Source of the DNA: Acetomicrobium flavidum
GTDB taxonomy: Bacteria; Synergistota; Synergistia; Synergistales; Acetomicrobiaceae
Assembly: GCF_900129645.1 (NCBI RefSeq)
Contig: NZ_FSQZ01000001.1
Coordinates: forward strand, 1,884,001-1,948,000
DNA: 64,000 nt
Reading direction: 5' to 3'
Below the pieces are notes generated by a model. That model did not search any database. It was not told the origin of the DNA and saw only the letters and a list, made by a program, of their open reading frames with translations. Shown here in pieces: positions 3,215-61,219 of this stretch. How positions within the stretch are numbered: the stretch's first letter is position 1; every line of letters starts with the position of its first letter. Both the position numbers and the translations under genes were made by a program.

Positions 3215-4477
3215 TTACAGCCCAGCCACATATCCGTATTTTTCCACGAACTGCTGCGGCGTCATGTTGGCGATGCGCGACATCTTGTTTAAGAGGAATT
3301 CCGATTCGAAGTCGCCCCTTTCCAGGCGGATCATGTATTCCTTGGCAATTCGGTATTGCAGCGAATTTGTATCCACGAGCCTGATCCTCATCTTGCCCGT
3401 GGTGGGGTCTACTATTTCATCGAAGGGTATGGGCGTCAGTTGGTTGTTTTGTATGGTGATCACAGCATTGGTGCCGCCGCCTGCCAGAAACTCGAAGGCA
3501 CCGTAACCCAAGTTTCGGGTGTACTCCACGTCGAAGGGATTTGGGGGAGCGCATCTGACTTCGTATCCGATCTCCTTGTTTTGGACCGATATGGGGATGC
3601 CCATCTTCTTTAGCTCGCCGTTAAGCTGCTTTTTTAAGACGTCGGAGAAGTTGATCTCGGCATAGCGGACGTGCCCGTAGTCGTCCTTTTCTATGGAATC
3701 TATGGCCGCCAGCTCCTGAGAGGGGATTTTGGAGATCAGCCCTTCGGCCGCCACTATCACGCCATGGTCCTTTTCCAGGGCAAGTCTTTTTATGATGGCG
3801 CCGCTCATTATATCGATGACGTGCTTAAGGCATATGGTGTCTCCCTCGAACTCCTCTGGTATTACGGTGAGCGTGGCGCTGGCACTTTTGCCTATGCCTA
3901 AGGCCAAATGTCCGCTGGAACGTCCCATCGTTACGACCAGAAACCAGCGGCCCATGGTCTTTGCATCCTCCATTAGGTTCATCACCAGCTCGGCACCCAG
4001 TGCCCTGGCCGTCTCAAAGCCAAAGGTGGGCAGCCCCTCGGGCAAAGGCAGGTCGTTATCTATGGTCTTTGGGACGTGGACGAAATGGATGTTTAAGCCG
4101 AGCCTTTCCCTGGCAAACTCAGACAGCTTGTAGGCAGCGTAGGCCGTATCGTCCCCGCCGATGGTGACTATATGGGTGACGCCAAGGTCGACCAAGTTTT
4201 CGACCACTGTCTTTAGCGTCTGTTCGCTTTTTGTGGGGTTAAAGCGCGACGTGCGCAGTATGCTTCCTCCCTCGGTGTGGATGCGGCTTACCATGTCTAT
4301 GGTAAGGGGGATGACCCTTTTATTGGCCGTTGCCAGACGGGAAAAGCCGTCGCAGATGCCAAGCACGTCCCAGCCGTTGTTTCGCGCCTCTATGGTGACG
4401 GAAGCTATTACGTTGTTTATCCCCGGCGCGGGCCCTCCGCCGCATATGAGGGCCAAGGTGTTGTCCTTAAAGTTCAT
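3215..4477 (-). CDS. pfp: PPi-dependent 6-phosphofructokinase
   Basis: A 420-residue phosphofructokinase that converts fructose 6-phosphate to the 1,6-bisphosphate in glycolysis. The N-terminal LICGGGPAPGINNVI loop, the VTIGGDDTAYAAYKL segment and VPKTIDNDLPLPEG are present. Asp in place of the second Gly of the GGDG motif, and Lys in PKTIDND instead of Gly, are the two residues known to specify PPi rather than ATP, so a PPi donor and reversible reaction are expected. The MGRSSGHLALG motif for substrate binding is also intact. An acceptable start is the ATG at 4477, with AGGAGGA placed before it on the minus strand. The closely spaced Mfn-like genes follow downstream on the same strand. Confidence 0.9.
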   Translation of the reverse strand: MNFKDNTLALICGGGPAPGINNVIASVTIEARNNGWDVLGICDGFSRLATANKRVIPLTIDMVSRIHTEGGSILRTSRFNPTKSEQTLKTVVENLVDLGVTHIVTIGGDDTAYAAYKLSEFARERLGLNIHFVHVPKTIDNDLPLPEGLPTFGFETARALGAELVMNLMEDAKTMGRWFLVVTMGRSSGHLALGIGKSASATLTVIPEEFEGDTICLKHVIDIMSGAIIKRLALEKDHGVIVAAEGLISKIPSQELAAIDSIEKDDYGHVRYAEINFSDVLKKQLNGELKKMGIPISVQNKEIGYEVRCAPPNPFDVEYTRNLGYGAFEFLAGGGTNAVITIQNNQLTPIPFDEIVDPTTGKMRIRLVDTNSLQYRIAKEYMIRLERGDFESEFLLNKMSRIANMTPQQFVEKYGYVAGL

Positions 4478-9177: not shown

Positions 9178-9370
9178 CAGTGATCTGCGATTCCTCGGTG
9201 TTGATTGCATTGAGCTCGATCGATTCACTCAGCTGGACTATGGAGAGGCTGAAGTTATTGCCTTGGCTCTTGAGATGGGAGCCAGATTAGTTTTACTTGA
9301 CGAAAAGGAGGCCCGAGAGTTCGCTAGGAAACTGGGCTTAAATAAAAAAGGCCTTGTCCGACGCTCCTAA
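9174..9370 (+). pseudogene. DUF3368 (PIN-like) toxin, remnant with large internal deletion and frameshift
   Basis: The N-terminus reads TVICDSSVLIALSSIDSL from a TTG overlapping the antitoxin stop, matching the first strand and acidic residue of DUF3368 PIN-like proteins. From about 9233, in another frame, the C-terminal part reads LDYGEAEVIALALEMGA and LVLLDEKEAREFARKLGL, the characteristic second half, ending at TAA 9368. About 70-80 residues of the middle, including catalytic acids, are missing, and the two parts are out of frame. A functional nuclease is not possible. The full family length is about 155 residues; about 65 remain. Confidence 0.8.
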
Positions 9371-9404
9371 AAACGCAGGCTTTCCGAGATGTCTGGTTGA
9401 TGTT

Positions 9405-10352
9405 ATGGAAGAAAAGGGAAAGATTGTACTGTTTAACGAGAAATTTGCCTCATGGGAGGAGGCGCTCGAGGCGTTTATCCTCTTCAGGAAGGCCGAAGGA
9501 TACTCGAAGCGGACGATCGAGGACTACCGCTACCACATCGCGCACCTGTTTAAAGAACGCCCGCAGGCCTGGGACCCGGCATGCCCGAGCAAGGCCAAGG
9601 CGGCGGTGCTTTCCTATCTGGCCCAGGACGGCATCGCTCCCGCCACGTTTAATCTGAGGCTGAACTACATAAAGGCCTTCTTCTCCTGGCTGGTGGCTGA
9701 AGGCGCTTTCCCGGAAAATCCGGCATGGGGGATCAAAAGAAGGAAGGCCGAACCGAGGATCGTCCAGCATCCGGCGGAAGTCTTGGAAAAGCTGCTTAAG
9801 CTTCCGGACAAGTCGACTTACTGCGGCAAGCGCGACTACGCCCTTATATGCCTTTCGATCGACACGGCGATAAGGCCGGGCGAGGCGCTGGCTTTGACCC
9901 TTGACGACGTGGATTTAGACGATCTGACCGTGCTGGTTCGAGCCTCCGTCTCAAAGACGCGAAAAAGCAGGATATTGCCCTTTTCTCTTGAGACGGCAAA
10001 GGCCCTGCAGGCCATGATCTCAATGCGGCCGAAGGAGTGGGACACGAAGCTGCTTTTTACCAACCACGAGGGAGACATGTTAACCGTTTCCGGCTGGAGG
10101 CAGAAGCTGCAGAGGCACTACGCGCCAAAGCTCGGCCTTAAGCGCCTTTCGCCCTATGACCTGCGCCACGACGCGGCCGTTTATTTCCTTAGAAACGGCA
10201 TGAACCCGTTTGCCCTTCAGGCCATCATGGGACATTCAAACTTAGAGACCACGAAGCATTACATAGCGCTGGTCGAGGCCGACATCCGCGAGGCACAGGA
10301 AAAGGCATCGCCGGTGAGAAGATTGATAGGGAAGAACAAGAGGGTGAGGTAA
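9405..10352 (+). CDS. tyrosine recombinase/integrase
   Basis: A 315-residue XerC/D-like site-specific recombinase. The N-terminal SAM-like DNA-binding domain includes FILFRKAEGYSKRTIEDYRYH and ATFNLRLNYIKAFFSWL. The catalytic domain shows the first Arg in DTAIRPGEAL, a Lys in VSKTRKSRILP, DLRHDAAVYFLRNG, the GHSNLETTKHYIAL segment with His and the nucleophilic Tyr. One oddity is Tyr where the first His of the HxxR box normally sits (SPYDLRH); some active recombinases tolerate this. The frame is open to a TTG at 9354, but the ATG at 9405 is the first ATG; neither has a strong ribosome site. The gene probably belonged to the island that ends near the tRNA-Lys fragment. Confidence 0.85.
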   Translation: MEEKGKIVLFNEKFASWEEALEAFILFRKAEGYSKRTIEDYRYHIAHLFKERPQAWDPACPSKAKAAVLSYLAQDGIAPATFNLRLNYIKAFFSWLVAEGAFPENPAWGIKRRKAEPRIVQHPAEVLEKLLKLPDKSTYCGKRDYALICLSIDTAIRPGEALALTLDDVDLDDLTVLVRASVSKTRKSRILPFSLETAKALQAMISMRPKEWDTKLLFTNHEGDMLTVSGWRQKLQRHYAPKLGLKRLSPYDLRHDAAVYFLRNGMNPFALQAIMGHSNLETTKHYIALVEADIREAQEKASPVRRLIGKNKRVR

Positions 10353-14466: not shown

Positions 14467-14682
14467 ATGAGATTTACAGCGGTTATAACAAAAGAAGGAA
14501 AATGGTACATAGCTCATTGTGTTGAGCTTGGGCTTGTTAGCCAAGGAAGGACTATAGAGGAAGCTCAAGCGAACCTAAAAGAAGCTGTGGAGTTATATAT
14601 AGAAAGCTTTGGGCGTGAGGATTTGCTGGAAAGTAGCTGTGAAGTGATACTATATCCCTTTGAGGTTGCTATGGGTGAGTAA
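14467..14682 (+). CDS. hicB: HicB-like antitoxin
   Basis: A 71-residue HicB-type protein with the partial RNase-H-like fold: MRFTAVITKEGKWYIAHCVE, LGLVSQGRTIEEAQANLKEAVELYIE, which is the standard HicB_like pattern. It lacks the extra C-terminal helix-turn-helix of longer HicB proteins. It overlaps the truncated hicA by 8 bp, so antitoxin precedes toxin. TATAAT at 14441-14446 is a likely -10 box. With its toxin destroyed, the gene may be drifting, but its own frame is complete. Confidence 0.82.
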   Translation: MRFTAVITKEGKWYIAHCVELGLVSQGRTIEEAQANLKEAVELYIESFGREDLLESSCEVILYPFEVAMGE

Positions 14683-14779
14683 ACTGCCGGTTCTGTCTGG
14701 AGAGGAGTTAATTAAAGCTCTTCTAAAGGCTGGTTTTACAATAGTTCATCAAAGGGGAAGCCAGGTATCAGAGGATTGA
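14675..14779 (+). pseudogene. hicA: HicA toxin, truncated
   Basis: From the GTG at 14675 the frame reads SKLPVLSGEELIKALLKAGF then TIVHQRGSQ before an early stop at 14777. HicA toxins are about 60-80 residues with a catalytic His in the GSH motif; here that residue is Gln and the remaining half of the double-stranded RNA-binding-like fold is gone. The break coincides with the left end of a 42-bp palindromic repeat, which probably replaced the missing part. Confidence 0.85.
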
Positions 14780-14820
14780 GGGCCTACCGTTCATTTAGTG
14801 GTTTTGTAATGGTAGACCCC
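14779..14820. repeat. 42-bp palindromic repeat, copy 1
   Basis: GGGCCTACC at the left and GGTAGACCCC at the right are near-perfect inverted ends around an AT-rich centre containing CATTTAGTGG. A second copy lies at 47377-47418. This copy replaces the end of hicA and also supplies the last codons and stop of the cdaR-like gene on the other strand. Confidence 0.8.
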
Positions 14821-15968
14821 AAGGATTTGAGGAAGATTGCAATGGCAAGCTTCATGCAGTCCTTGAAGTTCCAGGGGGAAAGGCCGGTGACGGACTCTAA
14901 CTTTTTGAGGCGATAAAGAAGGGTGTTTCGATGCAGCGATAGGCTTTTTGCGGCTTCGTTCGTCCTGAATGAATGGTCGCACCAGGCGCAAAAGGTCTCG
15001 ATGAGCTGGTCAGAATCGGGATGGGCAGTTAGCTTGCCGAGGATTTGCTCTACGAAGTCTTTTTGTTTCTTTAAAGGGATGGAGGCGAGGGCGCATTCCA
15101 TGATGATGTCGCTTGCTGAAAAGCAGCGCTCGCCTTTTTGGCGAATCTTTTTGCCCAAGGTCAAGGCCTCTCTGGCCCTCCTGTAGGATTCGGCAAGCTC
15201 TCCGATGTCTTTAGCCGGTTGCCCGATGCCGATCGAGACGGCAATGCCTTCTTTGGAAAGCAAGCTCATGCATGATCGGCACAGCTCGAAGACGTAACGT
15301 TCAAATTTGTCGTCGTCAAGCTTGCGGTCGTTGACGAGAAATGCGCATGCAGAGAAGCTGTTTAAGGGACAAAAGACGTTTTTGGGATGGTGAAAGGTCT
15401 CTTTTAAGCGGTCCAGCACACGGCGCATCGTGGATCCCACCTGTTCGCCCACGTAGGATTCAAGCTCTACGATCATAGCTATGCGGCACAGTTTAAGGTC
15501 GTAGCCGAGCTCTTCGCCCTGCAGCAAAATAAGCGTCTCGTTTCCGTAGGCAGGGTTGAAGGACGCTAAGCTTTGGGCCAAATCGGAAAGCGCCCTTTCG
15601 CGAAGCATGTTCTGCTGTATGAGGGCCTGTTGTCGTAACATTATTTCAGCCTGCTTTTGCACGAGCAACCCGAACTTTTTGACCTCGTCGGGGTCGCCTG
15701 CTATGGCGATGGACCCGACAACCTCTTCGGCCAGTAAGATCGGCAGCGTGAAACCAGGTTTTACTCCGGACATCTTTGATGCCTCGGCTTCGGTGGTCAC
15801 GAGGGGCTTCCTTGATTTCATGACCTCAAGCGAAGGTATGTGGCAAACTCCGATTCGAGACGCATCGTCGCACCCGATTATGATCCCCCTGTCGTCGGTA
15901 ACCAAGACTCCGTGGCCGATGATGTCGCTTACCGTCACGGCAATATCCTGTGCCACCTGATTTAACAT
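14784..15968 (-). CDS. CdaR/PucR-type transcriptional regulator
   Basis: A 394-residue regulator of the sugar-diacid-recognition (CdaR) type. Seen: N-terminal VAQDIAVTVSDIIGHGVLVTDDRGIIIG diacid-recognition segment, a VVGSIAIAGDPDEVKKFG strand, and a C-terminal PucR helix-turn-helix with TNEAAKSLSLHRNTLLYRL. Such proteins usually respond to small carboxylates. The gene diverges from grdE with about 157 bp between starts, so it probably controls the reductase genes. The last dozen residues (from about LGSTITKPLNER) are encoded by the 42-bp repeat, so the original C-terminus may have been altered. The ATG follows AGAGGTGTG. Confidence 0.83.
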   Translation of the reverse strand: MLNQVAQDIAVTVSDIIGHGVLVTDDRGIIIGCDDASRIGVCHIPSLEVMKSRKPLVTTEAEASKMSGVKPGFTLPILLAEEVVGSIAIAGDPDEVKKFGLLVQKQAEIMLRQQALIQQNMLRERALSDLAQSLASFNPAYGNETLILLQGEELGYDLKLCRIAMIVELESYVGEQVGSTMRRVLDRLKETFHHPKNVFCPLNSFSACAFLVNDRKLDDDKFERYVFELCRSCMSLLSKEGIAVSIGIGQPAKDIGELAESYRRAREALTLGKKIRQKGERCFSASDIIMECALASIPLKKQKDFVEQILGKLTAHPDSDQLIETFCAWCDHSFRTNEAAKSLSLHRNTLLYRLKKLESVTGLSPWNFKDCMKLAIAIFLKSLGSTITKPLNER

Positions 15969-17422: not shown

Positions 17423-18733
17423 ATGTCTTACCGCGTGGTTTGCTACATAAACCAATTTTACGGAGGAAGGGGAGGAGAGGAAGTTGCCGATTTCAGACCT
17501 GAGCTCGTCGAAGGTCCCGTGGGGCCGGGGCTTGAGCTTCAAAGGTTGTTTGGCGACGAAACAAGGGTGATAGGCACCGTCATCTGCGGCGACGGCTACT
17601 ACGCCGAACACATCGAAAAAGCCCGTGCCGAGTGCATAAAGATCGTCGAAGATCTAAAACCAGACCTTTTCGTGGCGGGCCCTGCCTTCAACGCCGGTCG
17701 CTACGGCGTGGCCTGTGGCGACATATGTGCCGCCGTAACGCGAAGCTTGGGCATACCTTCCGTCACGGGCATGTTTCCCGAAAACCCGGGCGTTGAGCTG
17801 TACCGTGCCCAAACGTTCATCGTTAAAACCGAGAACAGCGCCAGGGGCATGAAGCAGGCGTTGGCGAGCATGGCGCGCCTCGGCCTTAAGCTGTTAAAAG
17901 GCGAACCAGTCGGCCCCGCATATGAAGAAGGCTACATCCACCGCGGCATACGCAAGAACTTCTTCAAGGATAAAAGAGGATCGCTTCGGGCCATCGACAT
18001 GCTGCTTCAAAAAATCGCAGGGCAAGAATTTCGCACGGAATATGAGATGCCCGCCTTTAAAAAGATCCCTCCGGCGCCTCCTATCAAGGACTTAAAGCGC
18101 GCAACCATAGCCCTGGTCACCTCGGGCGGGATCGTGCCGAGGGGCAACCCCGATAGGCTTCGCGTTTCCTCGGCCGAAAGTTATGCCAAATACGACATCT
18201 CGGGGCTGAATAACTTGACTCCCGACGAATTTGAGTCGATCCATGGAGGATATGACCGGATGTGGGCAAACTTGGACCCCGACGTGGTAGTGCCCTTAGA
18301 TGTCATGAGGGAGCTTGAAAGGGAAGGGGTGTTTGGCAAACTTCATCCTTATTTATATACGACCACGGGAACGGGGACATCTGTAGCAAACGCCGAGCGA
18401 TTTGGCCAAGAGATAGGCCGCGAACTGAAAGAAGCTGGCGTGGACGGCGTAATTTTGACCTCCACCTGAGGGACGTGCACCCGATGCGGCGCATCGATAA
18501 CGAGGGAAATAGAAAGGGTGGCCCAAATCCCCGTTGCCCAGATCGCGACGATAGTGCCCATAATGCTTACCGTGGGGGCCAATCGGATCGTGCCGGGCGT
18601 TGCCATACCTCACCCTGTGGGCAACCCCGAGGCAGGCCCCGAGGAGGACAAAAAGACGAGACGCAAACTCGTGCTTCGGGCTTTAAAGGCCCTGCAGGCA
18701 GATATATCCGAACAGACAATATTTGAATCCTAA
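17423..18733 (+). CDS. grdB: glycine/sarcosine/betaine reductase component B, selenoprotein subunit (GrdB type)
   Basis: A 436-residue selenoprotein that must be read through an in-frame TGA at 18467-18469. The N-terminus YRVVCYINQFYGGRGGEE and the GPAFNAGRYGVACG segment are typical of GrdB/GrdF/GrdH. The codon context reads ILTST-Sec-GTCTRCGASITREI, the conserved Sec-x-x-Cys-x-x-Cys active site, after which the protein continues for 88 residues to a TAA, ending ALQADISEQTIFES. The total length equals the family's normal length. A SECIS-like hairpin follows the TGA. GGGGGGAAG precedes the ATG. A conventional reading would wrongly stop at 18469. The Sec residue takes the carboxymethyl group to component A. 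SelA/B/C/D must be elsewhere. Confidence 0.93.
18467..18506 (+). promoter_or_regulatory. selenocysteine TGA and SECIS-like hairpin
   Basis: The TGA at 18467-18469 is followed after 11 bases by CGATGC-GGC-GCATCG (about 18482-18496), a perfect 6-bp stem with a 3-base loop, inside the coding sequence. Bacterial SECIS elements sit just 3' of the UGA at this spacing. The exact fold recognised by SelB was not modelled. Confidence 0.75.
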
Positions 18734-38641: not shown

Positions 38642-40084
38642 ATGACCAAAGACCTATCCCAAGTGCTATCTGCAGTAATAAGGGAATACGACATCAGGGG
38701 GATCGTAGGCGAGGAGCTAACCCCAAAGCTTTCTTACTGCCTCGGCAGGGCCTACGCGGATTACGCAAGATTAAGATGTCACCGTATAGACGACAAAACC
38801 ACTGTGGCCGTGGGCCACGACTGCCGCATGGCCTCATTTAGCCTGGCAAAAGCTCTATGCCATGGCCTTTCGGATGGAGGGCTCCATCCTTTATACTTGG
38901 GCATGGTGACCACTCCTATCGTATATTACGCAACTTGTGCCTTAGATGTGGCCGGCGGCATAGCCGTGACGGGAAGCCATAACCCGCCGGAATACGACGG
39001 CTTTAAGATATGTCTGGGAAGCGACACCCTTTATGGCGAGGAACTTAAAAAACTTGGCGAGCTTGCCCTGCTGTACGAAAAGGCCGCTCCTGGACCGGCG
39101 CCTGAAATATCAGAAGAAGACATCGTGACGTCATATAAAAATGAACTTCTGTTGCGCACAGATGGGAAGGTAGTGGCACAGGCGACGCCAAAGGTCGTCA
39201 TCGACGGAGGAAACGGCACAGCCGGGCCTGTCGCCAGAGATGTGCTCGAATCGCTGGGATGTGAAGTCCTTGGATTATATATAGAGCCTGATGGCAGCTT
39301 TCCCAACCATCACCCTGATCCCACAGTTGAAGATACCTTGAAGGACCTGAAGAATGAAGTCGCAAACAGTAAGGCAGATTTCGGCATTGCCTTCGATGGA
39401 GATGGCGACAGGATAGGCGTGGTCGACGAAAGTGGCAACGTCGTTCGAGGCGATAAATTGCTTTACCTTTACGCGAAAAAGATACTCGAGCAAAACCCTG
39501 GCGCCGTCATCATGGGAGAGGTCAAATGCTCCAAGGCAGTGTTTGAGGCCATAAAAAGGGCCGGAGGGAAACCCTTGATGTGGAAGACGGGCCATTCCCT
39601 CATAAAGGCGAAGATGAAAGAAAGCGGTGCGCTCCTTGCAGGAGAGATGAGCGGACACATGTTCTTTGCAGACCGCTACTTCGGCTATGATGACGCCGTA
39701 TACGCCGCCTGCAGGTTGGTTGAATGCTTTGCCTATGCAAAGCTTGGCGACCCAAGCGTCACCTTTTCGAGATTGTTTACGGATCTTCCTGCGACCTTTG
39801 CGACCCCCGAAATTCGCATAGCCTGTCCCGACGACGAAAAGGAAGGCATAGTTAGCCAGGTTCGAGAGGCCATATCCGCCTGGCCCGACGTCAAGGAGGT
39901 CATAACCATCGACGGCGTTCGAGCTCACTTGAAAGACGGTTGGGTCTTGGTGCGTGCCTCAAACACGCAGCCCGTGTTGGTAGTGCGCTGTGAATCCTAC
40001 ATTTCCGGTGAGCATTGCGATATGCTAAAATATAGGACATTAAACCATGTAGGACAAATTATCAAACATAAAAGCGAGGGATAA
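38642..40084 (+). CDS. manB: phosphomannomutase / phosphoglucomutase
   Basis: A 480-residue alpha-D-phosphohexomutase interconverting mannose 6- and 1-phosphate. The four domain motifs are seen: REYDIRGIVGEEL at the start, the phosphoserine loop GGIAVTGSHNPPEYDG, the metal loop FGIAFDGDGDRIGVVDE, the sugar-binding GEMSGHMFF and the C-terminal phosphate loop RASNTQPVLVVRCE. GGAG stands eight bases before the ATG at 38642; an in-frame GTG nine bases earlier overlaps the manC stop. It completes the GDP-mannose pathway with ManC. Confidence 0.93.
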   Translation: MTKDLSQVLSAVIREYDIRGIVGEELTPKLSYCLGRAYADYARLRCHRIDDKTTVAVGHDCRMASFSLAKALCHGLSDGGLHPLYLGMVTTPIVYYATCALDVAGGIAVTGSHNPPEYDGFKICLGSDTLYGEELKKLGELALLYEKAAPGPAPEISEEDIVTSYKNELLLRTDGKVVAQATPKVVIDGGNGTAGPVARDVLESLGCEVLGLYIEPDGSFPNHHPDPTVEDTLKDLKNEVANSKADFGIAFDGDGDRIGVVDESGNVVRGDKLLYLYAKKILEQNPGAVIMGEVKCSKAVFEAIKRAGGKPLMWKTGHSLIKAKMKESGALLAGEMSGHMFFADRYFGYDDAVYAACRLVECFAYAKLGDPSVTFSRLFTDLPATFATPEIRIACPDDEKEGIVSQVREAISAWPDVKEVITIDGVRAHLKDGWVLVRASNTQPVLVVRCESYISGEHCDMLKYRTLNHVGQIIKHKSEG

Positions 40085-42500: not shown

Positions 42501-42835
42501 GGGAATCCTCGAGGGTCGTCCTCCTCGAGCATAACCTCGGGGGTCGGATCTTGAATCTTGAATTTTTCGTTGAATCCCTTGAAAAGCAACAAAGGGGTTC
42601 TTGAATATACTGAAAGTCAAAATATAATACCGATGTTTTGTAATTTACCAATAACGTAGCAAATCAATTTCTTATCGGTATAGAGAATTTTGGCCATATT
42701 CCTCATATTTTATACTTCTCAAATTCTCCCACTTGTTACGTGATCTTCATTAGCATATAATCGTTACGCAAACTGCGTAACGCATTTAGCGTAACAATGA
42801 ATGCGTAATAAGCAATAAAAGGTGGAAGGTAAATC
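42501..42835. other. intergenic stretch with a dispersed-repeat stub and GCGTAAC palindromes
   Basis: No gene is seen. CTCGAGG-CCTCGAG near 42508-42529 is a hairpin, possibly the end of the polysaccharide operon. At 42535-42567 is the first 33 bp of the GGGTCGGATC repeat that recurs at 43975 and 45944. GTTACGC-AAACT-GCGTAAC at 42763-42781 is a perfect palindrome, with two further GCGTAA copies at 42789 and 42803, just before the ATPase gene. Confidence 0.6.
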
Positions 42836-43974: not shown

Positions 43975-44440
43975 TCGAGGGTCGGATCTTTAATCTTGAA
44001 TTCTATGCTAATGTTTTAAAAATACAAGAAATAAGTTTACTAAAGCACCAAAACCCGAAATTAATGGTGCGAACACAATAGGGCTCCGTCGAATCTCCTG
44101 CCTGTCTTATGCTCTCGACATAGATCAAGACACCATGCAACGGATAGTAAAAGAACTTGGAGGTGAAAAAGTTATGCCGTCTGTGACAGAAAAGCTTATA
44201 AAACAGGGCAAGCAACAAGGTAAAAAAAGAAGGCGAAATTAAAGGCAAACAAGATCTGCTTATAAAACAACTGCGCCGAAAATTCGGTTTGTCATCATCT
44301 GACGAAAAGACGATCCGCTCCGTCACTGACGAATCCAAGCTTGACGCAGCAGCCGAAGCCGTGCTTGACGCTAAATCGAAAGACGAAATATTTAAAATAT
44401 TGGTCTGCTAAATCACATCTCTCCAGCACAAAAGTTCTTC
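43975..44440 (+). repeat. ~470-bp direct repeat, copy B (left of the TAC operon)
   Basis: It starts with TCGAGGGTCGGATC directly after the ATPase stop and ends in CTCTCCAGCAC. Copy C at 45944-46430 follows the same order with high identity, including the pseudogene it contains. A 33-bp stub lies at 42535. Confidence 0.85.
44066..44411 (+). pseudogene. Rpn/DUF4351-like C-terminal fragment, frameshifted
   Basis: Reads RRISCLSYALDIDQDTMQRI then VKELGGEKVMPSVTEKLIKQ, a stop after GKKRRRN, and in another frame KQDLLIKQLRRKFGLSSSDE, ending EIFKILVC. The Lys/Glu-Gly-rich linker followed by an LLxxLxRKFG helix is the tail of PD-(D/E)XK recombination-promoting nuclease (Rpn/YhgA-like) proteins. The nuclease domain is missing. 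Confidence 0.65.
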
Positions 44441-44594: not shown

Positions 44595-44996
44595 ATGTTA
44601 GTATATGTGTTGATCTATGAGGATGTGTTTTCCGTTTATGCCCTGGAGAAAGATGACGGAAGTTGCGATATTGCGGAACTTCTTGATATTAGCTATTCCA
44701 AAAACAAAGAAGATGGAAACTTGCGTGCTGCAATGGTTAGAAGAATTCAGGGTTTAGCGAAGGGTAATTTGCCAATAAGCAATGTACATCATTCGATCGA
44801 TAAGGACATCTGGCAAATATCATCTGGGAAATACAGGTTATTGTATTTTTATGATGCTGGACGCCGAATAATTTGTACTCACTATTTTGTAAAGGAAAAG
44901 GACAAGACGCCACGCAAAGAAATCAGTAAGGCGCAAAAACACCGAGATGATTATTTTAAGGCTAAGAAAGAAAATACTATCAGATTTAAAGATTAA
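44595..44996 (+). CDS. higB: HigB/RelE-type toxin of a toxin-antitoxin-chaperone operon
   Basis: A 133-residue protein of the HigB/Gp49-like RelE superfamily. After an N-terminal strand comes VRRIQGLAKGNLPISNVHH, then IWQISSGKYRLLYFYDAGRRIICTHYF, the basic RNase-like strand pair of this family, and a Lys-rich C-terminal helix (KEKDKTPRKEISKAQKHRDDYF). Members cut mRNA on translating ribosomes. It is 13 bp upstream of an XRE antitoxin, with toxin first as in hig loci. The gene begins right at a palindromic operator. It is on the long side because of the C-terminal helix. Confidence 0.8.
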   Translation: MLVYVLIYEDVFSVYALEKDDGSCDIAELLDISYSKNKEDGNLRAAMVRRIQGLAKGNLPISNVHHSIDKDIWQISSGKYRLLYFYDAGRRIICTHYFVKEKDKTPRKEISKAQKHRDDYFKAKKENTIRFKD

Positions 44997-45009
44997 AGGG
45001 TGATAATAT

Positions 45010-45450
45010 ATGGCAAAAGTAGGGAGCAGGTTCAAAAAAATTTTTGAAGAGGCGCAGCAACACCCAGCCTACTGGATGGAGGATTTGAGGCTACAATTTC
45101 TCGAAGAGATTAGCGCAATAATGGAAAGTCAAGGAATTACGCAAAAGGAACTTGCGGATAGAATGGGGGTTTCTGAAGCCTACATAAGCAGGGTCTTCAA
45201 TGACAACGTCGAAAAGAATTTTACCCTTAACACTCTTGTAGAGCTCAGTAAAGCCGTGAATGCAGAGATAAAAATTATCGTAACTCCCAAAAAAGCAAAA
45301 GGGTCTGATTTGCTTTATCAACAGGAATGGTTCAAGCTTCTCCAGTCTCTTGATTGCCTTAATGAATATGAAAACGTTGCTCATGATGAAACTTTAAGTC
45401 AGGAATCGCATTCTCATGAAGACAAAAGCCTCAAACCCGTGGCGGCCTAG
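45010..45450 (+). CDS. higA: HigA-type XRE antitoxin with C-terminal chaperone-addiction-like tail
   Basis: A 146-residue protein. Residues 30-90 form an XRE helix-turn-helix: QGITQKELADRMGVSEAYISRVFN. The C-terminal part, from about LLYQQEWFKLLQSL through CLNEYENVAHDE, is longer than in ordinary HigA and hydrophobic, as in the chaperone-addiction (ChAD) tail of toxin-antitoxin-chaperone antitoxins, which a SecB-like chaperone must bind for the antitoxin to be stable. The next gene encodes just such a SecB-like protein. GGGTGATA precedes the ATG. It probably represses from the palindrome at 44574-44593. Confidence 0.82.
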   Translation: MAKVGSRFKKIFEEAQQHPAYWMEDLRLQFLEEISAIMESQGITQKELADRMGVSEAYISRVFNDNVEKNFTLNTLVELSKAVNAEIKIIVTPKKAKGSDLLYQQEWFKLLQSLDCLNEYENVAHDETLSQESHSHEDKSLKPVAA

Positions 45451-45494
45451 GTTCTAACGTGTAAAATGTAGATTTGAGAAGAAGGAGAATGGCA

Positions 45495-45962
45495 ATGACT
45501 GGCGACGGCGAAAAGCAAGTCCTACTTAAGGCTTATAATGCACCGCTAAAGCTAAAGAGCCTGTTTTTCCCCATTATCCACTATGAAGCAATTCCACATG
45601 AAAATCCAAAAGATGCCAGAGCTCCGAAGCTGAAGACCGTAAAGGCGATTCCTCAATGCGGAGATGATTTTAGAGAATGTTCTGTTTCGCTTGAAATCAA
45701 ATCCGAGAGATCGTCAGAAGAAACGAAGCTTCTCTATGAATACGAAATAGTGGTATTTGGTTCATTTAAATGGACAGCAGAAATGCCGGAGGATAAAGAT
45801 TTTTTATTGAAATCTTTGACTGTAACCGGAGCAAGCATCCTCTATTCCAGCGCAAGAGAAATGCTTGCCTATGTTTCTAGCCGCGGTCCATGGGGAAGGT
45901 GCATTCTTCCCACAATTAGCTTCATACCCGAGATCCGAGAACCTCGAGGGTCGGATCTTTAA
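45495..45962 (+). CDS. SecB-like chaperone of the TAC operon
   Basis: A 155-residue protein. The C-terminal LTVTGASILYSSAREMLAYVSSRG and CILPTISFIPEI correspond to the SecB pattern of PHLLFPYARE and PINF-type elements, and the beta-rich front (CSVSLEIKSERSSEETKLLYEYEIVVFGSF) fits the SecB fold. The ATG at 45495 has GGAG seven bases upstream. In tripartite TAC systems the chaperone folds and protects the antitoxin tail. The last residues (REPRGSDL) and the stop are encoded by the left end of repeat copy C, so the native tail has been replaced or the gene was joined to the repeat. Confidence 0.78.
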   Translation: MTGDGEKQVLLKAYNAPLKLKSLFFPIIHYEAIPHENPKDARAPKLKTVKAIPQCGDDFRECSVSLEIKSERSSEETKLLYEYEIVVFGSFKWTAEMPEDKDFLLKSLTVTGASILYSSAREMLAYVSSRGPWGRCILPTISFIPEIREPRGSDL

Positions 45963-46430
45963 TCTTGAATTTTAAGCTAATGTATTAAAATACAAAATAG
46001 GTTTTTTAGAGTACCAATATTCAAGATTGAAGGTGCGAACGTAATAGGGTTTCGTCGAATCTACTGCCGGTCTTACACTCTCGACGCAGACCAAGGCACG
46101 ATGCAACGGATAGCAAAAGAACTCGGGGGTGAAGAAATCATGCCGTCATTGGCAGAAAAATTGATAAAACAAGGGGAAGAAAGTGGCAAAATAGAAGGCG
46201 AAAAAAGAGGCGAGATTAAAGGTATAATCAAGGGCAAACAAGATCTGCTTATAAAACAACTGCGCCGCAAATTTGGCCTGTCATCATCTGACGAGAAGAC
46301 GATCCGCTCCGTCACCGACGAATCCAAACTCGACGCAGCAGCCGAAGCCGTGCTTGACGCTATCTCCAAAGACGAAATATTTAAAATATTGGTCTGCTAA
46401 ATCACATCTCTCCAGCACGAAGGTTGCTCG
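45944..46430 (+). repeat. ~470-bp direct repeat, copy C (right of the TAC operon)
   Basis: Same order as copy B: CGAGGGTCGGATC, about 75 bp of AT-rich spacer, the Rpn-like fragment, GGTCTGCTAAATCACATCT and CTCCAGCAC. It overlaps the 3' end of the SecB-like gene. Confidence 0.85.
46032..46400 (+). pseudogene. Rpn/DUF4351-like C-terminal fragment, frame intact
   Basis: The frame reads from RRIYCRSYTLDADQGTMQRI through MPSLAEKLIKQGEESGKI, a charged KIEGEKRGEIKGIIKGK linker, and KQDLLIKQLRRKFGLSSSDE to a stop at 46400. An ATG at 46101 could give a 99-residue peptide, but the nuclease domain is absent and the whole matches copy B, so it is treated as a fragment. Confidence 0.65.
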
Positions 46431-46460: not shown

Positions 46461-47354
46461 ATGCGCTTGAGCGAAAGGCCGCTTGATTTTGATTTCATAT
46501 TAAAACAGCTTCAAAGGGCACCGGATGCGCTAATGCCCTACAGGAAAGAGGTCGCGGCCCTGATTTTGTTCGGCTCTGCGAGTCGAGATGAGGTCACGCC
46601 TTTGAGCGATATCGACCTAGCAGTTTTGTACCGTGAAGGTTTAAGCGAATGGGAAATGTTTAAGATTCATTCAAATCTTTACATCGATCTCTCTCGGCTG
46701 ATGCACACGGATGACTTTGACTTAGTAAATCTAAACGTTGCACCGTTAACCCTGCAATTTAGCGCAATAGAAGATAAAGTCATCCTGGTCCTTTACGATC
46801 CTCAAGCCTTGGTCGATTTCCAGGCTAAGGTTTTGGGTGCTTACATGGACTTTTACCCGATTCTGCGGGAGCATTACAAGAGACTCATACATGCTTCGGA
46901 GGAACCTTCAATGGATATTAAATTAATGAATCAAATTGAATTGTTACAGGAATACATAAGTCGCCTTGAAAGGATTCGACAAAAGCCTATGGAAGAATAT
47001 CTAAAAGATGAAACTTTGCAGGCAGCGACGGAACGTTACTTGCAAATCGCAATCGAGACGTGCATAAACATAGGCAATCGTTTGCTTTCGTTGCATCAGT
47101 TTAAGGGCAATTTTAAGGCGCCAAAGACCTATGCAGATATCTTCAAAACACTTGCCTCGCTAAACGTCATCCCTGAAGACTTTGCCGACAAACTGGCTCG
47201 TATGTCCGCAATGCGCAACATCCTCGTCCATGTATATTGGGAAGTTGATAGCAAGTTAGTTTACCGCACAATCCACGATGAATTGGACGATTTCGGCAAA
47301 TTTCTTTCGTATGTAATGGCCTTTCTCAATAAGTTGGAGGAACAGAAAGGCTGA
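46461..47354 (+). CDS. MntA-HepT fusion: nucleotidyltransferase antitoxin joined to HEPN toxin
   Basis: A 297-residue single protein. Residues 1-120 are a minimal nucleotidyltransferase with LILFGSASRDEVTPLSDIDL, exactly the GS-x10-D-x-D motif of the MntA antitoxin. Residues 160-295 are a helical HEPN (DUF86/HepT-like) domain ending with MRNILVHVYWEVD, the R-x4-H-x-Y motif of the HepT RNase. In the known type VII system the two are separate genes and MntA adds AMP groups to the HepT tyrosine. Here they are covalently joined. AAGGAG is in front of the ATG-containing start. It lies 31 bases after repeat copy C and before the second 42-bp palindromic repeat. Confidence 0.85.
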   Translation: MRLSERPLDFDFILKQLQRAPDALMPYRKEVAALILFGSASRDEVTPLSDIDLAVLYREGLSEWEMFKIHSNLYIDLSRLMHTDDFDLVNLNVAPLTLQFSAIEDKVILVLYDPQALVDFQAKVLGAYMDFYPILREHYKRLIHASEEPSMDIKLMNQIELLQEYISRLERIRQKPMEEYLKDETLQAATERYLQIAIETCINIGNRLLSLHQFKGNFKAPKTYADIFKTLASLNVIPEDFADKLARMSAMRNILVHVYWEVDSKLVYRTIHDELDDFGKFLSYVMAFLNKLEEQKG

Positions 47355-47376
47355 TCCCTTCAATTGCAGCGATTGC

Positions 47377-47418
47377 GGGGTCTACCACTTATTTAGTGAT
47401 TTTATAATGGTAGACCCC
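47377..47418. repeat. 42-bp palindromic repeat, copy 2
   Basis: GGGGTCTACCA and TGGTAGACCCC form a perfect 11-bp inverted repeat around CTTATTTAGTGATTTTATAA. It matches copy 1 at 14779-14820 except for a few bases, and lies just after the MntA-HepT gene. Confidence 0.85.
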
Positions 47419-47461
47419 AAAGATCACGGGTGCGGCTAAATAAATTTCTTCATTATATATA

Positions 47462-47998
47462 TCACCCTACGGCGCAGCTCCAGAGCCGGGCGAGGCGGTT
47501 GAGCCAGCCGTGAAGGAAGACCCGCCGGTCGGGATTTCGGGCGACGATGTCGTTGTAGTATTTCGTGCGTCGCCAAAGCAAGGCGGACAAGATTTTGGTC
47601 TTGGGCAGAGCATGATTCCAGGCAGCCTGCATGGTCTTTTGCCCAAAAATGCCGTCGACAGCCAAATCTTCGCCCAGCATGTTAAGCGCCTCCTGCAGGA
47701 ACTTCACGCCCTGCCTCAATCCGCAGTTGACGCATCCGTCGAAGACGGCTAAATCGACGGGGCGGGGGATGTGGTCGCACCCTGCAGGTTTCCAGTAAAA
47801 TTTCTCGTAGATCGCCAGCGCCTGCTCTTTTGTGAGGTCCTTTACGTCTTCGGGAAGCCCGGCGTCTTTTAGTTTGGCTCGGGCCGAGGCGAGGGTGGCG
47901 GCGGTGATGCCGTAGTTCGTCCTGCCGCCGGGGTCTTTCGGGTTGTCTACGAATCCTCCTTCGACCATGAAAATATAGTCTGCAACGTTTTTTCTCAT
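47462..47998 (-). CDS. phage-type lysozyme, GH108 with peptidoglycan-binding domain
   Basis: A 178-residue endolysin-like N-acetylmuramidase. The N-terminal FMVEGGFVDNPKDPGGRTNYGIT holds the Glu-Gly-Gly catalytic motif of glycoside hydrolase family 108. The C-terminal segment with DGCVNCGLRQGVKFLQEAL, LAVDGIFGQKTM and LLWRRTKYYNDIVARNP is the associated PG_binding_3 part. The ATG at 47998 has AAAGGAG six bases upstream; the outer ATG at 48013 does not. No signal peptide is seen, so release would need a holin; the small YvrJ membrane protein just upstream is a candidate. Confidence 0.88.
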   Translation of the reverse strand: MRKNVADYIFMVEGGFVDNPKDPGGRTNYGITAATLASARAKLKDAGLPEDVKDLTKEQALAIYEKFYWKPAGCDHIPRPVDLAVFDGCVNCGLRQGVKFLQEALNMLGEDLAVDGIFGQKTMQAAWNHALPKTKILSALLWRRTKYYNDIVARNPDRRVFLHGWLNRLARLWSCAVG

Positions 47999-48125
47999 GA
48001 AATCTCCTTTCATCTATATTAATCTATATTTATGCGCCGTCGCCAGCGCTTGCATTTTTCAATTACGGTCAAAAAACTTGCAAAAAGGCCTCGAAAGTCT
48101 GCAAAATTTCAAGGTAGGCTTGCAA

Positions 48126-58605: not shown

Positions 58606-59811
58606 TTGAAGGATAATACGAACATTATAATTTTAGGCGGATATATTAATGGATATAGTATAGCAAGAACAATATATGAGACATACGGGATAATGTCATA
58701 TATATTTGATTATAGATCTCATTTCAGCTCTAAATCTAAAATAGTATACTACAAGATTGTTCCTAACCCCAGATATGTCGATAAATTTTTAGAATACATG
58801 ATATGTTTTGGAAATAAAAATAAAGAAAGAAATAATATACTATTTGTGACTAATGATGAATGGTTGGTGCCTTTAGCAAAACACAAAGAAGAGCTAGAAA
58901 AATATTATATGTACACTTTCTCTGATTGGAATATTATTGAAAAATTAACCATTAAAAAGAATCTGTATCAATTATGCGAAAACATAAAGATACCATATCC
59001 TCATACTATGTTCATAGATCAATGCAATATTGATAATATTAAACTTTTAGAATATCCTATATTAATAAAACCATCTAATGTGGTATGTTACATTAATACA
59101 ATCCAGGGCAAGAGAAATAATATATTTAATAACTATAGTGATGCAATTCAATTCTTAAATAAATGTTTTCAAAAATATAATGACTTATTCATTGCACAGG
59201 AATACATTCCAGGAGGGGTAGAAAATTTGTACACTGCAACCACATACTCAAATAAAAATGCAGTCCTAAAAGGCATATCAATTGGACATAAATTATCACA
59301 GTATCCACCTGAAGCAGGAACAATGACTGCTGGTTTAACTAAATATGTGGATGAGATCGAAAAGTTAACGGAAAAACTATTAAAGAGTAGTAATTATTAT
59401 GGGATAGCTAACACTGAGTATAAGTATGATAAACGAGACAATTTATATAAAATAATGGAAATTAATCCCCGTCCGGGTATATGGAATTATTCAGCATTAA
59501 AAAGTGGTGTCAATTTGTTCCGTTTATTGATTGATGACTTGATATGCGAACATAGAAAAGAAAGTGCTAACAATATTGATACTATTGTCAGAGGAAAAGA
59601 AAGTATAGTATGGTTTGTAACACCAAAAATGGAATTACGATATACATTAAAAAAATATAATATTAAACAATACGCAGAAATAGTTGATCCTAGAAATAAC
59701 AGTATAGAACCATTTATATATAAGTGTCATATAGTTGCGACAGATATTAAAAATTACACTAAGAGAATTATAAAGAATATATTGCAAAAAATGAGAAAAT
59801 ATATACCATAA
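58606..59811 (+). CDS. ATP-grasp ligase, second of two
   Basis: A 401-residue ATP-grasp protein with only distant resemblance to the preceding one. Seen: NIIILGGYINGYSIARTIYE at the N-terminus, YPILIKPSNVVCYI (nucleotide Lys), FIAQEYIPGGVENLYTATTYS, and KIMEINPRPGIWNYSALKSG as the Mg segment. GNTEYKYDKRDN-like connection and long AT-rich tail follow. The TTG start follows AGAGGTG. Two consecutive ATP-grasp genes between a GNAT gene and a flippase suggest a dedicated step such as peptide or amino-acid amide formation on a glycan. No peptide-carrier protein is seen. Confidence 0.78.
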   Translation: MKDNTNIIILGGYINGYSIARTIYETYGIMSYIFDYRSHFSSKSKIVYYKIVPNPRYVDKFLEYMICFGNKNKERNNILFVTNDEWLVPLAKHKEELEKYYMYTFSDWNIIEKLTIKKNLYQLCENIKIPYPHTMFIDQCNIDNIKLLEYPILIKPSNVVCYINTIQGKRNNIFNNYSDAIQFLNKCFQKYNDLFIAQEYIPGGVENLYTATTYSNKNAVLKGISIGHKLSQYPPEAGTMTAGLTKYVDEIEKLTEKLLKSSNYYGIANTEYKYDKRDNLYKIMEINPRPGIWNYSALKSGVNLFRLLIDDLICEHRKESANNIDTIVRGKESIVWFVTPKMELRYTLKKYNIKQYAEIVDPRNNSIEPFIYKCHIVATDIKNYTKRIIKNILQKMRKYIP

Positions 59812-59917
59812 CAATATTGTGTAACAATATGTTTTTATATGTAATATAATTATAACAAGATATTGTAATTTATAACTAATGGATCATGATTAATATACCT
59901 GCATGGAGTGATGTCTA

Positions 59918-61219
59918 TTGCTTCATCTGAGAAAACTATTCCAAAGTACCTTTGCTAAAAATGTTGCAATGATTAGTGCAAGTACAGCATTTGCTCAAAT
60001 GCTTAATGCGTTATTTTCACCAGTTATCACACGTCTTTATAATCCAGATGAATATGGAATATTAACATTATATATTTCTATCTTGGGATTAGTGGCCATT
60101 ATAGCCTCATTAAAATATGAATGGGGGATAACTATCGCTGAAAGCGATGAAAAAGCTGTTAATGTTATGTGTTTAGGCTTTATCATTCTATTTATTTTTA
60201 CAATAATAACTTATATTATTTTTTATCTATTTGGAAGGCCTATTTTAAATACATTAAATGCTACTAAACTCTTTAATTATAGATATTTGATACCTATAGG
60301 TGTATTACTTGTAGGTTCCTATGGAATATTTTTACAATGGGCTTATCGCAATAAGGATTTTCACTCTATTTCGATGACAAAGATTTGGCAAAGCGTCACT
60401 GGAAATGGGGCTTTCGTTTTGTTTGGTTTCTTGAGAATCGGTCCTGTCGGTTTGATTCTTGGACAAATCTTAAAAGAAAGTGCTGGAATAGGTTCATTAT
60501 CTAGGCCATTCTTTAGAAATAGCATACGATTAATAAAGGAAATCAGTAAAGACCAAATAATATGGTGTGCAAAAAGATATAAAAATTTCCCATTATATTC
60601 GGCTCCTTCGCAATTACTAAATACGGCTGGTATACAATTGCCTGTTTTTTTCATATCTTCTCTTTATGGAAGCCAGGTTTTAGGCCTATATGGTTTGGCT
60701 AATACCGTTGTAAATCTCCCAATGGTGTTAATTGGCCAATCCATAGGAGATGTTTTTTATGCGGAGGTGGCAAGTATTGGAAAGAGAAATCCTAAGAGAG
60801 TAAAAGACTTAACTGACAAATTATTCAAAAAACTAGTTGTTATTGGATTGGTTCCTCTTGTAGTTTTACTGTTTTTCGGACCATTTTTATTTTCATTTGT
60901 ATTTGGTTATAAGTGGTATGATGCTGGAGAATATGCCAAGATACTTGCCTTTTTAGTTTTCGCCAGGTTCATTTTCACTCCCATTAGTAGAATATATTCT
61001 GTTTTTGAGAGGCAAAAAAAAGCATTCATGTTAGATTTATTTAGGGTGATTTTAGTTTTTGCAGCTTTCGGAATTTCTGATTTCTTTAATTTGTCTTCTT
61101 ATTTAGCCGTAGGTTTGTACTCTATTGCTATGTCTATTGTATATCTAATTACTTATCTACTAGCACAAAATATATTAAAAGAAGACATAAAAAAGAGAGA
61201 GACTTTTGAGACTGCTTAA
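59918..61219 (+). CDS. wzx: polysaccharide flippase, Wzx-type
   Basis: A 433-residue membrane protein of the MOP superfamily with about 12 helices. The N-terminus FAKNVAMISASTAFAQMLNALFSPVITRLY and PDEYGILTLYISILGL are typical of Wzx O-antigen flippases, and SGQSIGDVFYAEVASIGKRNP-like loop and ISRIYSVFERQKKAFMLDLF later follow the family. It would flip a lipid-linked repeat unit across the inner membrane. A TTG after GGAGTGATG is the likely start. It is separate from the MurJ-like protein at 30525. Confidence 0.85.
   Translation: MLHLRKLFQSTFAKNVAMISASTAFAQMLNALFSPVITRLYNPDEYGILTLYISILGLVAIIASLKYEWGITIAESDEKAVNVMCLGFIILFIFTIITYIIFYLFGRPILNTLNATKLFNYRYLIPIGVLLVGSYGIFLQWAYRNKDFHSISMTKIWQSVTGNGAFVLFGFLRIGPVGLILGQILKESAGIGSLSRPFFRNSIRLIKEISKDQIIWCAKRYKNFPLYSAPSQLLNTAGIQLPVFFISSLYGSQVLGLYGLANTVVNLPMVLIGQSIGDVFYAEVASIGKRNPKRVKDLTDKLFKKLVVIGLVPLVVLLFFGPFLFSFVFGYKWYDAGEYAKILAFLVFARFIFTPISRIYSVFERQKKAFMLDLFRVILVFAAFGISDFFNLSSYLAVGLYSIAMSIVYLITYLLAQNILKEDIKKRETFETA

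Follow-up and report, generated by a model that had tools for sequence, protein, structure and literature searches.

A possible TIRtron-like miniature end element at the borders of small cassettes in a variable stretch of Acetomicrobium genomes

Results

We describe a 42-bp palindrome (GGGGTCTACC...GGTAGACCCC) in Acetomicrobium flavidum, a heat-loving bacterium, and assign a probability of about 0.5 to the reading that it is a TIRtron-like miniature end element which, with longer GGGGTC-ended terminal inverted repeats (TIRs), delimits small cassettes, many of them toxin-antitoxin, within one variable stretch of Acetomicrobium genomes. The window, meaning the whole 64,000-nucleotide stretch analyzed, corresponds to G000:C1:1884001-1948000; G000 is the source genome and G001 to G005 are other Acetomicrobium genomes, six in total. 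Comparison of the genomes shows that the palindrome marks junctions that border relocated cassettes, and that TIRs can stand in its place: one and the same cassette is found next to different neighbors, bordered by a TIR on one side and the palindrome on the other, and a junction that has the palindrome in one species may have a TIR in another. From these arrangements we infer cassette movement driven by a TIRYT, a TIR-associated HUH tyrosine transposase whose gene is present in two relatives. Enzymatic exchange of junctions, if that is what occurs, would explain a dense reshuffling of toxin-antitoxin modules without integrons or phages and would suggest a role for the TIRYT family. In the accessible part of the source that describes this family, functional tests are still called for (PMC3733652); the four-genome comparison yields concrete substrates in the end of cdaR, the MntA-HepT cassette and the PIN locus.

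Sequence and distribution of the palindrome

The window holds two copies. Copy 1 (14779..14820), between a hicA fragment and a cdaR-like gene, is an imperfect palindrome with arms GGGCCTACC and GGTAGACCC (DNA fold z about -2), and copy 2 (47377..47418), 3' of MntA-HepT, is a perfect palindrome with 11-bp arms (DNA fold z about -5.6). Consensus matches with at most three mismatches fell at 14780-14819 and 47378-47417 of the window, compared with none in 100 shuffles. The original prediction had placed the second copy beside a toxin-antitoxin gene, which proved to be an MntA-HepT fusion. It had also proposed a genome-wide search for the two arms; this does recover the repeat, but the suggested pattern would miss copy 1 because the left arm there is GGGCCTACC. 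Across the whole of G000, an exact-arm pattern with N15-25 matched two places and a relaxed pattern three, the third copy lying at G000:C1:1976034-1976077, 28 kb outside the window.

Using a model built from nine copies, with 150 of the 162-250 candidates per genome scored, we found 15 places in four of the six genomes (3 in G000, 3 in G003, 5 in G004 and 4 in G005). This count leaves out reverse-strand duplicates, G004:C20:53017 (E = 0.8) and a partial match in G002:C120 (E = 0.011). Each carrying genome has all its copies within a single stretch, whose length is approximately 77 kb (G000), 50 kb (G004), 29 kb (G003) or 14.5 kb (G005), and this clustering brought a parS-like chromosome-organization site into consideration. 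No match came from viral contigs, and a scan of named genome contigs, in which own or very near records may be omitted, placed the palindrome in Acetomicrobium records alone. No description of the palindrome was found in the open literature. Half palindromes, loop-broken or with one arm missing, were seen at G005:C1:15432 and in L024 (G002:C120:724-746).

The suspicion that the repeat belongs to a mobile, transposon-like family was supported by its behavior: where the opposite case would have shown two copies only and the same gene ends in relatives, there are three copies in this genome and 15 in the genus, and the 3' end of cdaR differs in two relatives. Judged as a MITE, the palindrome has inverted arms and offers no clean empty site for a lone copy; target duplications, for which a search of the flanks had been advised, were not seen by eye in the flanks examined.

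Going by the frame lists of the loci read, every palindrome lies on the 3' side of one gene or more, as would be expected of an RNA-level hairpin, either a terminator or a protector of mRNA ends, that is kept 3' of genes and has no role in mobility. We consider this improbable. Neither window copy has a T-run or a terminator-like site and neither qualifies as an intrinsic terminator, no base pair is changed on both sides among the nine copies, the window has no Rfam match, and the loop is conserved among the nine copies as well as the arms; the exchanged flanks described below would also be left unexplained. An RNA element was rejected on the lack of covariation, Rfam match and terminator.

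Terminal inverted repeats and their transposase

The TIR motif of the stretch reads GGGGTC[AG]G.TCTTTAATCTTGAA, and was searched for as GGGTC[AG]G[AG]TCTTTAATCTTGAA. Motif matches on the forward strand of the window include a GGGGTC-type TIR at 42541..42562 and GGGTC-type TIRs at 43979..44000 and 45948..45969, the last of which forms the left border of the MntA-HepT cassette and supplies the C-terminal GSDL and the stop codon of a SecB-like gene. Allowing up to two mismatches, we counted 19 TIRs in G000, 26 in G003, 24 in G005, 17 in G004, 12 in G002 and 2 in G001, and 17 of the 19 in G000 fall between 1926 and 1977 kb. Of 185 genomes of the phylum, 6 matched a stricter pattern, and every one of these is Acetomicrobium.

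A Y1 transposase gene lies between inverted GGGGTCAGGTCTTTA ends at 59577-60908 of G005; NCBIfam identifies it as a REP-associated tyrosine transposase (86.9 bits, cut-off 80), and the same arrangement of a Y1 gene between inverted TIRs recurs at approximately 112.5-113.8 kb in G003. G000 has no Y1 transposase gene, and a REP-type transposase as a required present-day partner in G000 was rejected on that absence.

A Y1 gene between inverted GGGGWSAS repeats is the layout of the TIRtron/TIRYT elements (Di Nocera et al. 2013, PMC3733652; TnpA-REP subclass 2.1 in Quentin et al. 2018, PMC6006769), as given in the available portions of both papers. On the same portions, Acetomicrobium resembles them in its Y1 gene with a C-terminal HTH-like part, in inverted repeats that fit GGGGWSAS (GGGGTCAG), and in the single and paired TIRs and short derivatives scattered through the genome. 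The palindrome does not follow the TIRs in all of this. Whereas TIR GGGGTCAG fits GGGGWSAS, palindrome GGGGTCTA departs from it at position 7, and palindrome and TIRs have GGGGTC alone in common. Likewise, GGGGTCAGGTC TIRs flank the Y1 gene, whereas no Y1 gene is bounded by the palindrome in any of the six genomes. The palindrome differs from a TIRtron in fitting GGGGTC alone and in flanking no transposase; it also lies at the borders of gene cassettes that have been exchanged, and the accessible text of PMC3733652 and PMC6006769 mentions no such role. We class it as a TIRtron-like variant, not as a member.

Two other families of small repeats offer partial likenesses. With REP/REPIN sequences and their RAYTs, which in the available parts of PMC2817692 and PMC3116915 are short, mostly extragenic palindromes tied to Y1 transposases, the palindrome shares that general character, but it lacks a GTAG/CGTC end tag (its ends are GGGGTC/GGGGCC, with GTAG inside the stem) and, at 3-5 copies per carrying genome, the high copy number of REPs. 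Like the Rickettsia palindromic elements, as summarized in the part of PMC3733652 that was accessible, it is small and supplies codons to neighboring genes, but here it supplies C-terminal ends and marks rearranged junctions instead of forming in-frame inserts. Delimitation of cassettes by TIRYT repeats was not found in the accessible open-literature text of PMC3733652, PMC6006769, PMC2817692, PMC3686654 and PMC3116915.

Three further TIR arrangements were observed. In several places, for example at 1966684-1966780 and 1968629-1968726 (L038, L039), G000 has a separate element, approximately 98 bp long and bounded by inverted GGGGTCAC[AG]TCTTTA ends, that looks like a miniature TIR dimer. A flank and the start of a TIR stand in tandem (X-GGGGTCG-X-GGGGTCGGATC) at 1964287-1964406 and 1972291-1972327 of G000 and at 17832 of G005, as if an insertion had stalled and restarted. 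The TIR motif is also present twice in one viral contig of apparently unrelated origin (L080:4134-4156 and 4326-4348), just before a large ATPase-like gene.

The cdaR end and the decayed hicBA pair

Palindrome copy 1 provides the final ten codons and the stop of the CdaR-like regulator gene (14784..15968, minus strand), in agreement with the original prediction that the repeat supplies the end of this gene; the gene had been called divergent from hicA, and the two are in fact convergent. At the 3' end of cdaR, three different sequences begin at one and the same base: the palindrome (G000), a TIR (G003) and a sequence reading GGGGTCA (G004).

On the other side of copy 1 are a HicB-like antitoxin gene (14467..14682, plus strand; 71 aa, with weak DUF7387/UPF0150 matches under curated cut-offs) and a hicA fragment (14675..14779, plus strand). 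The fragment is, as predicted, a frame of 34 codons plus stop, and its GSH motif reads GSQ, the predicted change of the catalytic His to Gln; we take the His of the GSH motif to be the catalytic residue. Covering only positions 1-23 of the 58 in PF07927, the window gene is not a complete HicA domain with a GSH motif. The frame starts with GTG at 14675, and its TGA stop (14777-14779) lies directly against the repeat. The claimed coincidence of the HicA end with the repeat therefore holds for the stop codon, but the HicA homology ends about 12 bases short of the palindrome.

The further claim that the palindrome destroyed HicA was not supported, and the palindrome was rejected as the likely breaker: a decayed hicBA pair in G004 (C5:22516-22773, 89% identical) has hicA homology that ends at the same codon, with no palindrome there. 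Judged by this remnant, HicA seems to have decayed before the palindrome came or without any connection to it, and the palindrome probably did not cut HicA; we regard the decay as a separate and probably earlier event. HicA-profile matches, ranging from whole genes to fragments, were found in each of the six genomes; broken copies are thus no special feature of the palindrome site.

Cassettes between TIRs and palindromes

The TIRs at 42541, 43979 and 45948, with the palindrome at 47378, partition this part of the window into an AAA ATPase gene, a HigB/HigA/SecB-like set and, as a third unit, a DUF4351 fragment together with MntA-HepT. The Gp49/HigB-like, HTH/HigA-like and SecB-like genes stand in a row between two TIRs (44595..45959, plus strand), the arrangement of toxin-antitoxin-chaperone sets. 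The DUF4351 fragment (46101..46400, plus strand) is the C-terminal part of a YhgA/Rpn-type protein and is followed by the MntA-HepT fusion gene (46461..47354, plus strand), a type VII toxin-antitoxin for which both NCBIfam models score over cut-off; beyond the palindrome lies a GH108/peptidoglycan-binding gene (47465..48013, minus strand), which in relatives comes after a different palindrome. YhgA/Rpn-type genes (Transposase_31, DUF4351), whole or partial, were also seen among TIRs at L038:8804-9754, L038:18223-18642 and L039:89-616, in addition to window 46101-46397.

MntA-HepT followed by the palindrome is contiguous in all four carrying genomes, and its neighbors differ. On the left, a GGGTC TIR connects it to the SecB-like gene in G000, to pgm in G003 and G004, and to a sugar transferase in G005; on the right stands GH108 in G000 and other sequence in G003, G004 and G005. 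A query of 46461-48000 breaks in two at the palindrome in each of the three other genomes with a match, where bases 1-961/964 (MntA-HepT and palindrome) lie 5.5-9.9 kb from bases 915/919-1540 (palindrome and GH108). By genome comparison, the site at 40067..40070 carries an MntA-HepT cassette in G003 and G004 and none in G000. The sequences found in G004 to the left of the cassette and, approximately 0.55 kb further out, to its right adjoin in G000. At the PIN/MNT locus, a 0.33-kb TIR element in G003 occupies the palindrome position of G004 and G005.

The stretch also holds surface-sugar genes and, outside the window, PIN, HicA, RelB/YafQ and MntA/HepT genes. A control stretch of 71 frames from another part of G000 showed no PIN, HepT, HicA or RelB family among the 25 most frequent of 158 families, and the stretch around the palindromes is apparently rich in toxin-antitoxin genes.

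Integron gene cassettes and pdif modules likewise carry toxin-antitoxin genes between recombination sites, and the Acetomicrobium array resembles both as a cassette-type system with such genes. The single modules between repeated sites, together with a tyrosine recombinase in the window (9354-10349), would fit an integron-like array in which such a recombinase recombines palindromes as attC-like sites. This is a very improbable account: the 9354-10349 protein scores 41.8 bits against an integron integrase cut-off of 265, and its only long matches in the palindrome carriers G003 and G004 are XerC/D-like proteins of 25-30% identity. The attC core is GTTRRRY, which was not seen in the palindrome. 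Unlike integron and pdif arrays, then, this array has no integron integrase over cut-off, and its sites are unlike attC or dif. Copies of the recombinase itself were found at another place in G000 (72% identical) and in G002 (71%), with no close relative in G003 or G004.

Exchange at junctions

We compared synteny-block ends (alignments of at least 300 bases, clustered within 30 bases) with the positions of GGGGTC. Ends within 25 bp of GGGGTC numbered 13 of 96 in G000, 17 of 106 in G005, 6 of 64 in G004 and 16 of 94 in G003; across 400 shifts the corresponding means were 2.6, 2.5, 1.3 and 2.4, and the maxima 8, 10, 8 and 9. The excess is clear in three of the four genomes, with G004 within the shuffle range, and among the best-scoring permuted hexamers are some (GGGTCG, GGTCGG) that partly coincide with GGGGTC itself. 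Approximately 82-91% of synteny breaks lie away from GGGGTC.

The same rearrangements might have arisen passively, from palindromes and TIRs that spread long ago and between whose copies ordinary homologous or short-homology recombination rearranges the region. Recombination between repeats remains the main rival to a TIRYT-driven process, though we rate it as less likely. The copies share up to approximately 40 bp, they point the same way at the changed MntA-HepT/GH108 junction, G000 is without the transposase, and variation is common in a stretch of surface-sugar and toxin-antitoxin genes. The elements exchanged at cdaR and the PIN locus, however, have GGGGTC alone in common, and this shared sequence is too short for normal homologous recombination to be likely there. 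At MntA-HepT/GH108, the two palindromes that recombination would need differ through the loop, and the G000 copy resembles the MntA-HepT type all the way to its outer edge.

On the TIRYT-driven reading, the enzyme would cut and rejoin strands at the TTTG|GGGTC edge and could move cassettes in trans, and the elements in G000 would be leftovers of past TIRYT activity. We think it unlikely that GGGGTC-ended palindromes and TIRs are exchange sites where a HUH transposase of the TIRYT type takes out and inserts toxin-antitoxin cassettes singly and in trans, so building an integron-like array by single-strand transposition. Counting against a TIRYT, besides the lack of its gene in G000 and of any Y1 gene flanked by the palindrome, is a palindrome locus whose flanks on both sides are unchanged in three genomes. 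When the 30 flanks of the 15 copies were compared with four regions, the third G000 copy had flanks without a match in these regions.

Neighboring genes often gain their new 3' end from a palindrome or TIR. In 16 cases the stop codon of a frame of at least 80 aa lies within a TIR or palindrome, compared with approximately 2.9 expected from coverage (4 in G000, 6 in G005, 1 in G004 and 5 in G003, with some orthologues counted more than once).
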